Shown here: positions 24,122 to 52,032 of the stretch, in pieces
Layout of the letters: every line of letters starts with the position of its first letter
Position numbering within the stretch: the stretch's first letter is position 1
Assembly: GCF_000812685.1 (NCBI RefSeq)
Contig: NZ_JWIF01000074.1
Coordinates: forward strand, 62,001-126,000
Direction of reading: 5' to 3'
Source: Halocynthiibacter namhaensis
GTDB lineage: Bacteria > Pseudomonadota > Alphaproteobacteria > Rhodobacterales > Rhodobacteraceae
Length of the DNA: 64,000 bases
The notes under the pieces: model-generated
Database searches by the model: none
Told to the model about the DNA's origin: nothing
The model's input: the letters and a program-made list of their open reading frames with translations, nothing else
Translations under genes and position numbers: made by a program

Positions 24122-25600
24122 GTGAAACCTAAAGCAATTGCGCTTGCCGTTCACAAGTCTCAACATAAATCTCTGATGCAGGGGCTGTGGCTGACCATTC
24201 TCGCCAGCGCGCTACTTTTGGCCCAGGCCATACAAGCGAACGCCCGCCCGGATAGTTTCGCCGACCTTGCAGATCAGGTCAGCAACGCGGTGGTGAATAT
24301 CACCACGACAACAACGGTCGCAGCACGCGGCGGCCCGGCACCGGTGGTGCCCGAAGGATCCCCCTTTGAGGATTTCTTCCGCGAATTTAATGACCGTAAC
24401 AACCGGGATGGTGGCCAAGGCCAAGCCCCACGCCGCAGTCAAGCGTTGGGATCAGGTTTCGTCATTTCGGAAGATGGCTTCATCGTCACTAATAACCATG
24501 TGATTGAGGGCGCGGATGAAATCCTAATCGAATTCTTCACAGGCGAAGAGCTGCCCGCGACCCTTGTTGGTACGGATCCAAACACTGACATCGCATTGCT
24601 AAAAGTCGAAACGGACGAAGTTCTAACCTTTGTGCCCTTTGGCGACAGCGACATCATGCGCGTTGGCGATTGGGTGATGGCGATGGGCAATCCACTGGGG
24701 CAGGGGTTCTCTGTTTCGGCTGGGATCGTGTCGGCGCGCAATCGCGAATTGTCTGGCACCTATGATGATTACCTTCAGACCGATGCTGCGATCAACCGCG
24801 GCAACTCTGGTGGTCCGTTGTTCAACCTGAACGGCGAAGTGATCGGCGTGAACACGGCGATCCTTTCCCCCAATGGTGGGTCCATCGGGATCGGCTTTTC
24901 CATGGCGTCCAATGTTGTGACTAAAGTTGTCGATCAGTTGAAAGAATTCGGCGAAACCCGTCGTGGTTGGCTTGGCGTTCGCATTCAAGACGTTAGCGAT
25001 GATGTTGCCGAAGCGCTTGGTCTTGCGGATACGGCTGGTGCGTTGATCACTGATGTCCCTGCGGGCCCTGCGGAAGAGGCGGGCCTGTTGCAAGGCGATG
25101 TGATCTTGTCTTTTGATGGGGTTGAGGTCGAAGATACCCGTGGTCTGGTGCGTGAAGTTGGCAATGCCGAAGTTGGCAAAGCGGTGCGCGTGTTGGTTTA
25201 TCGTGATGGCGGTACGGAAACTGTTCTCGTGACCCTTGGCCGTCGTGAAACAGCCGAAGCAGGTGCTGCCCCGATGGAAAAACCTTCCAGCGAGGAACCA
25301 CAGACCGCCGATATTCTTGGTATGACTTTGTCTGCTGTGAATGATGACCTGCGTGCGCAGTTGAGCCTCCCGGACGCGGCCACAGGTCTTGTTGTGATGG
25401 GGCTGGAAGCGGACGGTGTTGCAGCTGCTAAGGGGTTGCAGATCGGTGACGTAATCACTGAGGTTGGTCAGCAGCCAGTGCTTGCCATCGCTGACTTTGA
25501 AGCGCGCATTTCTGAAGCCAAAGAGGCCGGACGTAAATCGCTTCTGATGCTTGTACGTCGTGGCGGCGATCCGCGTTTTGTGGCGTTACCGTTGAACTAA
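24122..25600 (+). CDS. DegP/HtrA-type periplasmic serine protease (Do)
   Basis: 492 residues from GTG with an AAAGGAG ribosome binding site. A membrane/signal segment (about 20-42) sends it to the periplasm. The trypsin-like domain has an intact triad: H126 in TNNHVI, D156 in NTDIALL and S229 in RGNSGGP. Two PDZ domains follow (about 285-370 and 395-485). It degrades or refolds misfolded envelope proteins, which fits its place directly after hflKC. It could be called degP, degQ or mucD; the sequence does not decide. Confidence 0.92.
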   Translation: MKPKAIALAVHKSQHKSLMQGLWLTILASALLLAQAIQANARPDSFADLADQVSNAVVNITTTTTVAARGGPAPVVPEGSPFEDFFREFNDRNNRDGGQGQAPRRSQALGSGFVISEDGFIVTNNHVIEGADEILIEFFTGEELPATLVGTDPNTDIALLKVETDEVLTFVPFGDSDIMRVGDWVMAMGNPLGQGFSVSAGIVSARNRELSGTYDDYLQTDAAINRGNSGGPLFNLNGEVIGVNTAILSPNGGSIGIGFSMASNVVTKVVDQLKEFGETRRGWLGVRIQDVSDDVAEALGLADTAGALITDVPAGPAEEAGLLQGDVILSFDGVEVEDTRGLVREVGNAEVGKAVRVLVYRDGGTETVLVTLGRRETAEAGAAPMEKPSSEEPQTADILGMTLSAVNDDLRAQLSLPDAATGLVVMGLEADGVAAAKGLQIGDVITEVGQQPVLAIADFEARISEAKEAGRKSLLMLVRRGGDPRFVALPLN

Positions 25601-47598: not shown

Positions 47599-49380
47599 TT
47601 AGTTCCAGCAGCTGACCAGAACGGTCATATCCGCAGCCAGCGCGGTCAATTCTTCTGGGGCGATTTCCGCAGTATCTTCTGGCGCCGTTGGCGTGATGTC
47701 ATTGGCGAACAAAAGATCTACGATTGCGGTGCTGCGTGCGGCAAAGCGGGTGATTTCTGGTAGCCTCTGGCCTTCTGGGGACGTGGCGGGCTTCAGCATG
47801 CCGATTACTGCACCGGATGTGTCAAAGACTGGACCGCCCGCATCACCAGGCTCTGCAAGAAGGGCAAGACGCTGGATCGTATCTTCGCCATTCAGGCCAC
47901 GGATGTCTTCCAGGCGCCCATAGGTCAGGGTTGCCGCCGGCAGTACACCTTCAAACGGAAAACCAGCGATAATGACATCGGATTGAATGCGTGCGACACC
48001 GTCCCGCATCGCTGCAACGGCGGTGGGGGCAAGGCGTGATTTCGGGCGCAAGGCTGCTATACCAAGAGTGCTGTCAGAGAAAATGACTTCGGCCTCAGTA
48101 TCGTGGTTCAAAGTGATCTTGCTGCATTGCGCGATCACATCTGTGGTTGTCAGAGTGGTGCCGTCTGACGCGACGAAAAATCCAGAGCGGGATAGGGCTG
48201 GCTTGCGGATCTCAAGGCCAGAGATCAAATCGATGCTTTGGTCTTCGCCTGGTGCGCCGGCGGACAGGGGCAGAGTGGTGCCGGTGTTGGGGGTGAAGTT
48301 CGATTGCATTGCGCTTAACACGCGGGTGCGACGGCGCTCATCGCCAACGGGCCAAACCAGCGTAAAGCCCTTCACTTCACCATTGGCGAAGCGGGCTTCC
48401 GTGTGGCTGATGAAGTCACTGTTCTCACCGGTAAGAGTGAAGCTGTTGGCTTCTTTGCTGCGAGGGCCTTGTGGGGGAACCACATCAAGGGTTTGCATGA
48501 TGTCGTAGAGACCATGGAGCGTGGCTTGCGTACCAGCTTGTGAGATCAAAAGCACCCGCACGCCGCTGTCATCTTTGGCGTCGAAGTGCACAAATGGGTA
48601 TTCCTCGCTTGATCGGGTGATCAGGGCCGAGGGGATATCAAGGGTGATGCCAGCCTGCGCGTCATGGTGCGATACCATCCCAATACCGGCAAGGACTTCG
48701 TTATAAGTATCAACAAGTTGACGGCGTTGGAGCGTGGTTAAAACCCCAGTTTCCTCAAAGCCATTCGCGGCTTGCCACGCGGACATTGAGCGACGTGTTC
48801 CACGACCAAATGATCCATCAATCGCTGCGTTATAAAACCCGTCCCATTGCATCGCGACCTGTAGTTCTTTGCGTTCATCGCGCGTTAGATTTCCTTCAGA
48901 ACGACGGGCTTCACGTGGGGTCTCATCTGGCAAAATGGGAGAAGAGACCTCAAGAACAGTCTCGGCGGGCACCACAGGTTCCGCTGGGGCAACTGGGACA
49001 ATCGGATCTGCGGGCACCGTAGATTCTGGGTTGGCCAAGGCCGTGGCCCCCGTGGGCCAAAACTGGCGCGAATAATCGGAACTGATGGTGATGTAAGAAT
49101 CGCGCGGGATCGCCCCACTGGATTTCAACGTACGCATCCGGGTTTCGGCATCAGTTGCCGTATAGGGACCAAGCGCGATGGCATACCAACCAGAATTCAT
49201 CCGGAACCCATTGACTTCAAACAATTCATTCGACCAAGCCCGTGCACGTTGTTGGGCAGCTTGCAAATTGGACTTGGCTTCGATTTGAACAAAAGATGTA
49301 TTTTGTGCGGAAGCAAAGGACGTCGAACCGATCACGAACGAGGGGACTATAAGGAAGGCAGCGAAAAGGCGCGAAAGCAT
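47599..49380 (-). CDS. SPOR/peptidoglycan-binding protein with an inactive trypsin-like domain
   Basis: 593 residues from the ATG at 49380 (the open frame upstream has no signal peptide). Order: signal peptide (1-26); SPOR-like domain (about 28-100); Pro/Val-rich linker; PG_binding_1 domain (about 165-225: LQVAMQWDGFYNAAIDG, TRRSMSAWQAANGF); a mixed domain; and a C-terminal trypsin-like fold (about 400-575). In the last, every catalytic position is changed: TTTDVIAQC puts D414 where TNxHV needs His, TLGIAAL puts G440 where TDIAL needs Asp, and GDAGGP puts A514 where GNSGGP needs Ser. It should bind, not cut. It likely works at the cell wall, possibly at the septum. Confidence 0.8.
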   Translation of the reverse strand: MLSRLFAAFLIVPSFVIGSTSFASAQNTSFVQIEAKSNLQAAQQRARAWSNELFEVNGFRMNSGWYAIALGPYTATDAETRMRTLKSSGAIPRDSYITISSDYSRQFWPTGATALANPESTVPADPIVPVAPAEPVVPAETVLEVSSPILPDETPREARRSEGNLTRDERKELQVAMQWDGFYNAAIDGSFGRGTRRSMSAWQAANGFEETGVLTTLQRRQLVDTYNEVLAGIGMVSHHDAQAGITLDIPSALITRSSEEYPFVHFDAKDDSGVRVLLISQAGTQATLHGLYDIMQTLDVVPPQGPRSKEANSFTLTGENSDFISHTEARFANGEVKGFTLVWPVGDERRRTRVLSAMQSNFTPNTGTTLPLSAGAPGEDQSIDLISGLEIRKPALSRSGFFVASDGTTLTTTDVIAQCSKITLNHDTEAEVIFSDSTLGIAALRPKSRLAPTAVAAMRDGVARIQSDVIIAGFPFEGVLPAATLTYGRLEDIRGLNGEDTIQRLALLAEPGDAGGPVFDTSGAVIGMLKPATSPEGQRLPEITRFAARSTAIVDLLFANDITPTAPEDTAEIAPEELTALAADMTVLVSCWN

Positions 49381-49538: not shown

Positions 49539-50897
49539 TTATGCTTCATATTCCTTTGCGTCTTCTGAAATGGCATCTGTTGAGACATCCGTTGCTGACG
49601 CGCGATCGTCTCTGATCTTGGGCGCGCTTTTTTTCCAAGCCATTAAATTTGAACCGATCTCCCGGTAAAATGTAGGAACAATACCCTCAAGATCTGAAAT
49701 GAAGTTTGCTTGTTGAGTGAACCGCGCACCAAGCCTTTTTGAATGGAAAATATGAAAGCTATGCGGCGATAGGTTCTCTTTCCCTTCCGACGCTTTGTCC
49801 GAATTTTCACGCAGCATAGCGACTGGGAATTGTGTTGGATCATTGCGCCCCGGCCACATTAACCGGATGAACAAATCGTCTGTCTTTTCTGTCTTTACCT
49901 GCTTTAAAAGCCAATTTAGGCGAGCTTTTGTCGATACCTTATCTTCAGGTGCCCGCAGCGTCATACCGACATCGATGCAGCGTCGTGTTATGTCTGCAGT
50001 GACCTCAAGAACTGCCGCAGTATCTGGAATTTCCAAGGACGCAGTAAGCTGACGGTGTTCACGTAATGCGGTGATTTCATCCTTCGTTCTTAGGGTGAGG
50101 TCGCTGTGATGTTTTCGGCTGAGGCGTTCGCTGACGTGGGTTTCGGTCATGCGACTTAGAATGAATGACAAGTCCCGTGTTTCCTGATGCCATGCACTGA
50201 CGACGGTTGCTGCATCGGGGGACTTAGAAGGGATAACGCCGCCGCTAGAAACAAGTTTGTTTAGCTCGACCCATTCTTTGGGCATACGGTCAAAGCCTTT
50301 CACACCAGCACTTTCGTGGGACAGAAACCTTCTGAGTTCATTCAGAAGCATGCTTTGGTCTGCGTCGGTGACATTTTCTTGATTGAGCAACAGATCTGCC
50401 ACGGTCAAAATATACATCCAAGACCAATGAAAGACTGGGATCTTCGATTTGCTTTTTTGTACTTCTTCAATTGGATGTGCGGCGGGGGTGGTTGCGAACT
50501 GGTTTGAAATCGTAATGACGCAATCAATTGCATTGTCTTTTGCGAGTTGGCGGTATTTTTCGATTTGGGGCGCATTAAGATCGTTTGAACCAACCTTGGC
50601 TTCAATCAACGCTCTCCATTCGCGGCTTCCGGTTTTGAGCACAATAAGGCCATCAGGGCGGTCTTTTGTATCACTCGGGCGATTTTTTAGAACAACCTCT
50701 GTGTAGGTTTCAACTTTGGTTCGCACGCCAACACGCTGCCCAACACTTTGCATGAGGTCAGCGCCGAATTCGTCGACTTTAGCCAAGCAAGCCAGAACAA
50801 TTGATGTCGTTCGACCTTCTTTTGATGTGGTTGATAGAAGAGGAAAAAGACGCGCTTGTTCGCCTTGAATAAGGTATTCGGGAAGTTTTTCTGACAT
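49539..50897 (-). CDS. orphan PD-(D/E)XK nuclease-like protein
   Basis: 452 residues. The N-terminal region (about 60-130) has the PD-(D/E)XK pattern: RPDGLIVL (P81, D82), EWRALIEAKVG (E99-A-K101) and QIEKYRQLAKDN with the supporting Gln and Tyr, then strand IDCVITISNQF. The remaining 300 residues are mostly helical and unrecognised. It is soluble, and GLARF-like start LPEYLIQGEQARLFPLLS recurs, as far as I remember, in uncharacterised accessory proteins. Composition is more AT-rich than glyQ next to it. No methylase, helicase or toxin neighbour is present. DNA is the expected substrate but this is inference. Confidence 0.68.
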   Translation of the reverse strand: MSEKLPEYLIQGEQARLFPLLSTTSKEGRTTSIVLACLAKVDEFGADLMQSVGQRVGVRTKVETYTEVVLKNRPSDTKDRPDGLIVLKTGSREWRALIEAKVGSNDLNAPQIEKYRQLAKDNAIDCVITISNQFATTPAAHPIEEVQKSKSKIPVFHWSWMYILTVADLLLNQENVTDADQSMLLNELRRFLSHESAGVKGFDRMPKEWVELNKLVSSGGVIPSKSPDAATVVSAWHQETRDLSFILSRMTETHVSERLSRKHHSDLTLRTKDEITALREHRQLTASLEIPDTAAVLEVTADITRRCIDVGMTLRAPEDKVSTKARLNWLLKQVKTEKTDDLFIRLMWPGRNDPTQFPVAMLRENSDKASEGKENLSPHSFHIFHSKRLGARFTQQANFISDLEGIVPTFYREIGSNLMAWKKSAPKIRDDRASATDVSTDAISEDAKEYEA

Positions 50898-51102: not shown

Positions 51103-52032
51103 ATGGCGGGTACACATAACAAACCGACTTGTTTCCAGGAGATCATTCTCCGTTTGCAAAACTATTGGGCGGCTAAGGGCTGTGCGATGATGCAGCCTTA
51201 CGACATGGAAGTGGGCGCGGGAACGTTTCACCCTGCCACAACTTTGCGTTCGCTTGGGACCAAACCTTGGGCTGCGGCCTATGTACAGCCATCGCGTCGC
51301 CCAACTGATGGACGTTACGGTGAAAACCCCAATCGTTTACAGCATTATTACCAATATCAGGTACTGATCAAACCCAGCCCCTCTAACTTGCAAGAATTAT
51401 ACCTTGGGTCGCTTGAAGCGATCGGTGTCGACATGGAAATGCATGACATCCGTTTCGTTGAGGATGACTGGGAAAGCCCAACTCTGGGGGCTTGGGGCCT
51501 TGGTTGGGAAGTTTGGTGCGACGGCATGGAAGTGTCTCAGTTCACCTATTTTCAACAGGTTGGTGGCCATGATTGCACCCCTGTATCCGGTGAGTTGACG
51601 TACGGGCTGGAACGTTTGGCGATGTATGTGCTGGGCGTGGACCATGTTATGGACATGCCGTTTAACGCACCAGATGCTTTGATCCCGCTGACTTATGGTG
51701 ATGTGTTTAAACAGACCGAGGAAGAATACGCGCGTTGGAACTTTGACGTGGCAAACACAGAAGTTCTGCTGCGTCACTTTGAAGAAGCCGAAGCGGAATG
51801 CGAAGCGATCCTCGCGCAGGAACATGATGATCCCAAAACGGGGAAGCGCATCATCATGGCGCACCCGGCCTATGATCAATGCATCAAGGCCAGCCACATT
51901 TTTAACCTGCTGGATGCGCGTGGCGTGATTTCTGTGACGGAACGGCAAGCTTACATCGGGCGTGTGCGTGCGTTGTCAAAGCAATGTGCTGACGCCTTTG
52001 TGCTGACCGCGGCTGGTGGCGCGGCTGCTTAA
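51103..52032 (+). CDS. glyQ: glycyl-tRNA synthetase alpha subunit
   Basis: 309 residues, normal for the class-IIc catalytic alpha chain of bacterial GlyRS (alpha2-beta2 type). Motifs: [57 protein letters not shown] and [12 protein letters not shown]. It needs the beta chain GlyS, which usually lies just downstream in this group. Here a terminator and a minus-strand gene follow, and no glyS is in the window. The start ATG follows ACCG without a strong ribosome binding site. Confidence 0.96.

Follow-up and report, generated by a model that had tools for sequence, protein, structure and literature searches.

The minus strand at 47599-49380 of the window, a stretch of 64,000 nucleotides of Halocynthiibacter namhaensis DNA, encodes a secreted protein of 593 aa that combines SPOR-like, peptidoglycan-binding and Mog1/PsbP-like domains with a C-terminal, HtrA-type trypsin-like domain in which all three catalytic residues are replaced. 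On balance, sequence comparison and the analogy with other inactive peptidases favor a fixed, ancient pseudoprotease that would serve as a non-catalytic, wall-anchored periplasmic adaptor. Few bacterial pseudoproteases of the S1/HtrA type have been studied, MamO being the one found, and the present one is kept by most of the sampled genomes of its family, in company with wall-binding domains and with a clean active sister family for comparison. The label of an active trypsin-like peptidase would be wrong for this dead-domain group.

Translation of both frames across 47599-49380 gave the 593-aa product from an ATG start on the minus strand, and 12 stops in the plus frame. The protein begins with a Sec-type signal, read by eye, of about residues 1-26 (49303-49380, on the minus strand as are all parts of this gene), which ends in ASAQ and includes a helix predicted by AF2 at residues 2-17. 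An earlier note on this DNA had described both a SPOR-like and a peptidoglycan-binding domain. The latter is confirmed by a Pfam match to PG_binding_1 at residues 167-221 (E 1.8e-8, 34.9 bits against a cut-off of 23), which lies in a domain of residues 153-226 (48703-48924). The SPOR-like domain (residues 27-110, 49051-49302) is supported only at the family level: alignment A2, whose 26 members include four active paralogues besides the window protein, has matches to PF05036 in 10 members, the best at 1.2e-5, and the AF2 model has the element order beta-alpha-beta-beta-alpha-beta with pLDDT mostly 94-98, but the window protein itself has no Pfam SPOR match at E<=1. The Mog1/PsbP-like domain (residues 227-372, 48265-48702) was recognized by AF2, Foldseek and VIA-align, and the dead trypsin-like domain (residues 393-593, 47602-48204, up to the stop) by a Pfam Trypsin_2 match at residues 399-528 (E 2.6e-13, 51.4 bits against a cut-off of 27.6) and by VIA-align to DegS. 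This domain ends the protein, and Pfam matches at E<=1 include no PDZ, M23/LytM or TauE-type transporter domain. The MarP equivalog NF033740 scored 31.7 bits, below its NCBIfam cut-off of 250, and PHROGs returned one weak, unnamed match for protein P0001. The whole-protein AF2 model, built with 86 sequences, has a mean pLDDT of 91.0 and a pTM of 0.69.

Structure prediction, proposed in the earlier note as a check, yielded a model of the dead domain that matches DegS (Z 20.3, rmsd 2.3, 160 residues aligned by VIA-align), HTRA1 and MarP (3k6z; Z 18.8, rmsd 2.5, 158 aligned). These are the best solved folds for the domain, although the window protein has neither a PDZ domain nor the triad. The middle domain, folded alone as residues 226-372, reached a pLDDT of 93.3 and a pTM of 0.88. 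Its best Foldseek match was PsbP (2xb3, E 1.3e-5), and its best fold match by VIA-align had a Z of 12.6 and an rmsd of 3.6 over 134 of 147 residues, with PsbP in the top rows, followed by Mog1, DcrB and LpqN. At the sequence level, 65 members gave only weak, scattered Pfam hits, and a search against PDB profiles gave nothing up to E 10. PsbP, Mog1, DcrB, LpqN and SciW share the fold of residues 227-372 at about 10% identity, and their functions are not transferable to it.

The catalytic positions were assigned by aligning relatives, among them 27 (other proteins of the class and paralogues within the family) that have an intact H-D-S triad in the same columns, in the motifs TNxHVVxxC, DLALL and GNSGGP. 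In the window protein these columns hold Asp414 (codon 48139-48141), Gly440 (48061-48063) and Ala514 (47839-47841), exactly the three replacements that the earlier note had read. The core alignment comprised 184 unique orthologues, including the window protein, of which 181 keep the domain; ten of these retain one triad residue and none has two or more. Two divergent glyQ-linked sequences (L127 and L129) raise the number of dead rows to 183, with no canonical triad residue in 171, one in 12 and at least two in none. The Asp column is the most uniform (G in 166 and D in four of the 183, namely L121, L124, L127 and L129), and the Ser column follows (A 124, V 25, T 8, S 6). The His column varies more widely (E 97, D 30, A 23, Q 17, S 4, H 2, others 10). 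Given 0/183 with two or more triad residues and 27 relatives intact in the same columns, the loss is neither chance nor an alignment slip, and the domain is well supported as inactive from its sequence. Orthologues with an intact triad, and intact catalytic residues elsewhere in the domain, had been named beforehand as what could overturn this reading; none was seen among the 183 rows, and the loss is supported as ancient and fixed.

Several choices define these counts. The sequences were gathered by similarity to the window protein, which biases the set towards its like. Three DegP sequences (L002, L005, L006), a fragment (L052) and two repeats (L119 of L049, and L107 of L086) were dropped before counting. 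Outside the triad counts stand L066, where the ORF ends before the domain, L141, where the domain lies in another frame, and L123, L134, L139, L142 and L143, where it is absent. L063 is apparently frame-shifted, and its Ser column is unreliable and was scored as non-canonical.

A tree of the domain, built from 58 of the 183 dead rows and the 27 active rows with the triad columns left out, has one branch, of length 1.26 and support 100/100, with all dead rows on one side and all active rows on the other; the bootstrap was not fully settled, and deep forks on the dead side do not resolve. With this single, fully supported branch, the simplest reading of the tree is that the triad was lost once, before the sampled lineages of the family split. 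Outside the family, 24 of 187 genomes of the class matched at E<=1e-10. All of the class-level matches listed were confined to residues 385-592 and none was full-length; the 17 of the 24 that were retrieved were all active (17/17). Searching with an active paralogue gave 20 further loci, some repeating earlier ones, and all 20 carried active His and Ser motifs. None of seven active loci inspected (L128, L130-L133, L135 and L138) has glyQ beside it, the gene that marks the orthologous locus (see later), and for this reason the active family members are taken to be paralogues, or relatives further removed. L128 was considered as an active orthologue, since custom profiles detect the SPOR, PG-binding, middle and trypsin-like parts in it and its triad is intact, but it lacks an adjoining glyQ and groups with the active side, and is read as a paralogue.

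The active proteins were found as unnamed alphaproteobacterial secreted trypsin-like proteases (loci L087-L103, L128, L130-L133, L135-L138 and L140). Like the window protein, they have a Trypsin_2-type domain, the same two cysteines and a similar C-terminal end (TVLVECWK-like); unlike it, all 27 active relatives have an intact triad, a longer substrate-side loop and a clade of their own. L087-L103 form a broad alphaproteobacterial group that has the invariant cysteine pair and varied N-termini (Sel1-, MORN- or PG-binding-like, by eye). Four of the active trypsin-like paralogues, L128 (4992-6812), L135 (6001-7755), L236 and L240, combine a SPOR part with a PG-binding domain, and L128 bears a Mog1/PsbP-like part as well. 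The genome that carries L135 (G054) also has a dead version (L015).

The dead domain has continued to be constrained. Mean pairwise identity over 3000 random pairs of dead rows is 0.443 for the dead domain, close to 0.459 for the SPOR-like and 0.456 for the Mog1/PsbP-like domain, with 0.242 in the linker; the PG-binding domain is the best conserved part at 0.568. Relative to the active proteins there are near-fixed changes at four positions (D440 to G in 166/183, N513 to D in 165/183, Q504 to R in 171/183 and G398 to R in 142/183), and the loop at 527-546, which has 23 residues in 22 of 27 active rows, is shortened to 17-18 in 165 of 183 dead rows. An old active site with re-charged neighboring residues and a shortened loop is what remains. 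Two cysteines, Cys419 (codon 48124-48126) and Cys591 (47608-47610, the third residue from the C-terminus), occur together in all 183 dead and all 27 active rows, with exactly two cysteines per domain in 182/183 and 27/27, respectively, and they presumably form a disulfide. Of eight sequence pairs tried for dN/dS across the dead domain, two were saturated, four close pairs gave 0.03-0.05, and two more diverged pairs gave 0.28 and 0.35. As read from the sequences, the domain has been kept under purifying selection since the triad was lost.

A strong match to the protein (E<=8.7e-40) is present in 337 of 394 genomes of the family and lacking in 57, with the best three candidates per genome scored in this search and in that with L135. 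Those relatives that have species names are of the roseobacter and Rhodobacter types, and the family is presumably the Rhodobacteraceae. The orthologous locus is marked by the divergently oriented neighbor glyQ (51103-52032, plus strand in the window), which by tblastn lies near the gene in 40 of 41 loci with wide flanks (L119, the repeat of L049, included); the exception, L044, is at a contig end upstream. Cruder clustering of ORFs over 40 loci placed glyQ in 27, glyS in 29 and an intervening small protein gene in 20. Among the 57 genomes without a strong match, at least two (G025 and G032) still have the gene next to glyQ in a shortened or diverged form (L134 and L129). Another 20 of the 57 were inspected at the glyQ locus, and all 20 lack every part of the protein there. 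With 57 of 394 genomes lacking a strong match and these 20 glyQ loci empty, the protein is not essential across the family.

Within the locus, parts of the protein come and go. The dead domain is kept in 183 of the 190 non-active rows and is missing in L123, L134, L139, L142, L143, L066 and L141. In five of these (L134, L139, L142 and L143, from one genus, and L123) the trypsin-like domain is gone and the SPOR-like, PG-binding and middle parts remain at the glyQ locus; the four from one genus seem by eye to have two SPOR-like repeats. Conversely, seven rows keep the dead domain without an aligned SPOR part. Five of them (L063, L069, L071, L073 and L076) are likely to be broken assemblies or frames, since another piece of the genome in question matches the SPOR part. 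L125, which lies beside glyQ and has the middle and dead domains but no SPOR part, is the clear case. Together, the loci without the protease-like domain and the SPOR-less L125 indicate that the parts can work, or at least persist, separately. Lineages missing either this domain or the gene altogether are natural experiments. The earlier note had missed the Mog1/PsbP-like domain and the invariant cysteine pair, as well as the existence of an active sister family and of lineages without the protease-like domain.

How such a protein might act can be sketched from its domains and from better known inactive peptidases. The SPOR-like and PG-binding domains would hold it on the cell wall, and because SPOR domains are reported to bind denuded glycan (PMC6895207), the probable target would be division-site glycan that amidases have processed. 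The dead cleft, shaped by a Cys419-Cys591 bond, would bind a peptide or partner protein without cutting it, and binding could recruit or regulate a wall enzyme or an envelope protease, with the Mog1/PsbP-like domain perhaps acting as a second protein-binding module. The models for such binding are the groove of DipM and the non-catalytic work of MamO. In DipM, the groove at the degenerate LytM site has been modeled to dock several targets, and its critical role is reported as confirmed by mutational analysis (PMC10336132). DipM resembles the window protein in carrying an inactive peptidase domain and PG-binding domains in one periplasmic protein, but the LytM factors DipM, EnvC and NlpD have an M23 (LytM) fold with LysM domains (PMC10336132), to which the S1 fold of the window protein is unrelated. 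The idea that a dead HtrA cleft can be a binding groove in wall regulation, as a dead LytM groove can, becomes testable in this family. A location at the septum is less likely than a non-catalytic wall adaptor as such. A more specific and decidedly tentative version is a Rhodobacteraceae-type wall regulator, in which the dead HtrA cleft might read or recruit a partner at denuded septal wall and the Mog1/PsbP-like module might be a second docking surface; if true, it would be a second, unrelated invention of an inactive-peptidase wall regulator, with an HtrA cleft in place of the LytM groove.

The adaptor reading draws on the triad loss (0/183 with two or more residues, 12 with exactly one) and the single dead/active branch, on the identity of the dead domain being close to that of its neighbors, on the new residues, shortened loop and cysteine pair, on the low dN/dS of the four close pairs, on the confident model (mean pLDDT 91) and on the precedents of DipM (PMC10336132) and MamO (PMC4794232). 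Against it count the five glyQ-locus genomes that dropped the protease-like domain and kept the rest, the 57 genomes without a strong match, the two more diverged pairs with higher dN/dS, the seven rows without an aligned SPOR part together with the lack of a Pfam SPOR match in the window protein, and the variable His column (E, D, A, Q), which argues that no single conserved new role resides there. The same five genomes, along with the PG-binding domain being the most conserved part, would also fit a dead domain that is a leftover folded cap, tolerated or stabilizing, while the SPOR-like, PG-binding and Mog1/PsbP-like part does the work. Such a cap is unlikely, as the domain is about as conserved as its neighbors (0.443 against 0.456-0.459), has near-fixed R504, D513 and G440, shows dN/dS of 0.03-0.05 in four of six measurable pairs, and is kept in 183 of 190 non-active rows.

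A partner might be sought among active HtrA proteases, with the dead-domain protein regulating, for example, the DegP encoded in the window (24122-25600, plus strand, about 22 kb away) by competing for or presenting substrates. At E<=0.01 the window genome has three Trypsin_2 matches only: DegP, the dead-domain protein and a secreted S1 protease on another contig. The distance to a degP orthologue was checked in 34 genomes whose contigs are well assembled or come from the same genus. In 14 of them it is 11-29 kb, mostly 18-23 kb, from the dead-protease gene; these comprise all three from the window genus and 11 among the 31 others. In the remaining 20, degP is more than 100 kb off or on another contig. 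The two genes are never shown adjacent, and a near-constant spacing of about 20 kb could equally well come from a chromosome block shared since long ago; the proximity looks like an old, loose block of this kind and may or may not reflect a functional link. The window protein has no PDZ domain in Pfam, and the active sister L135 is not a general partner either: no more than 14 of the 394 genomes of the family match it strongly (E<=2.9e-93), and the window genome is not one of them. Regulation of DegP is an improbable role for the protein.

Still less probable is a pseudoprotease that holds an ion or small ligand between acidic residues 414 and 513 at the old active site. These positions are acidic in 127/183 and 178/183 rows, respectively, but position 414 also reads Ala (23 rows) or Gln (17 rows), and His reaches 20% of rows in none of the domain's columns. 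An Asp preceding the Ser is common in active chymotrypsins (GDSGGP), so that D513 alone tells little. The model for such a site is MamO of Magnetospirillum, an alphaproteobacterial HtrA-type pseudoprotease with non-catalytic roles that is reported to bind transition metal ions (PMC4794232). Its di-His metal site sits at another place, with the first His just before the Asp column, and the corresponding column 439 has no His in 183 rows and Leu in 117. MamO is like the window protein in having a degenerate triad and being kept as a clade (PMC4794232). Its own features include a triad of His, Asp and Thr, a TauE domain and the di-His site (PMC4794232); the window protein has lost all three triad residues and has wall-binding domains. 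Finally, the idea that an ordinary protease decayed recently, or that different residues now catalyze, is very hard to credit and was rejected: active proteins of similar layout do exist in the same family (L128, L135, L236 and L240 with the SPOR part, others without), but no dead row has two triad residues, one branch with 100/100 support parts the two groups, dN/dS is low in close pairs, and a search of the 183 rows for substitutes found no conserved His and no conserved Cys apart from the pair shared with active relatives.

The earlier note had known of no described function for this architecture, and the literature matches listed contain no description of this family, with subscription journals mostly outside their coverage. 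Pseudoproteases, and regulators that are inactive peptidases, are already known as kinds; what is new, as far as seen, is the S1 fold with these domains at this breadth. The available part of a CenKR regulon study (PMC9275681) holds nothing attributable to the dead-protease gene. A SPOR protein, Dshi_0924, has been reported from vesicles of Dinoroseobacter shibae (PMC7901474).

Between glyQ and the dead-protease gene the window has a 452-aa gene (49539-50897, minus strand), for which PADLOC and PHROGs gave no match and Pfam only a hint of an Mrr-type nuclease (E 0.19, below the cut-off). It is present in the three genomes of the window genus and in no other genus's retrieved locus, many of these being short-flanked. 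The window glyQ has no adjoining glyS, which is found on another contig (C58); many relatives keep glyQ, the small gene and glyS together.
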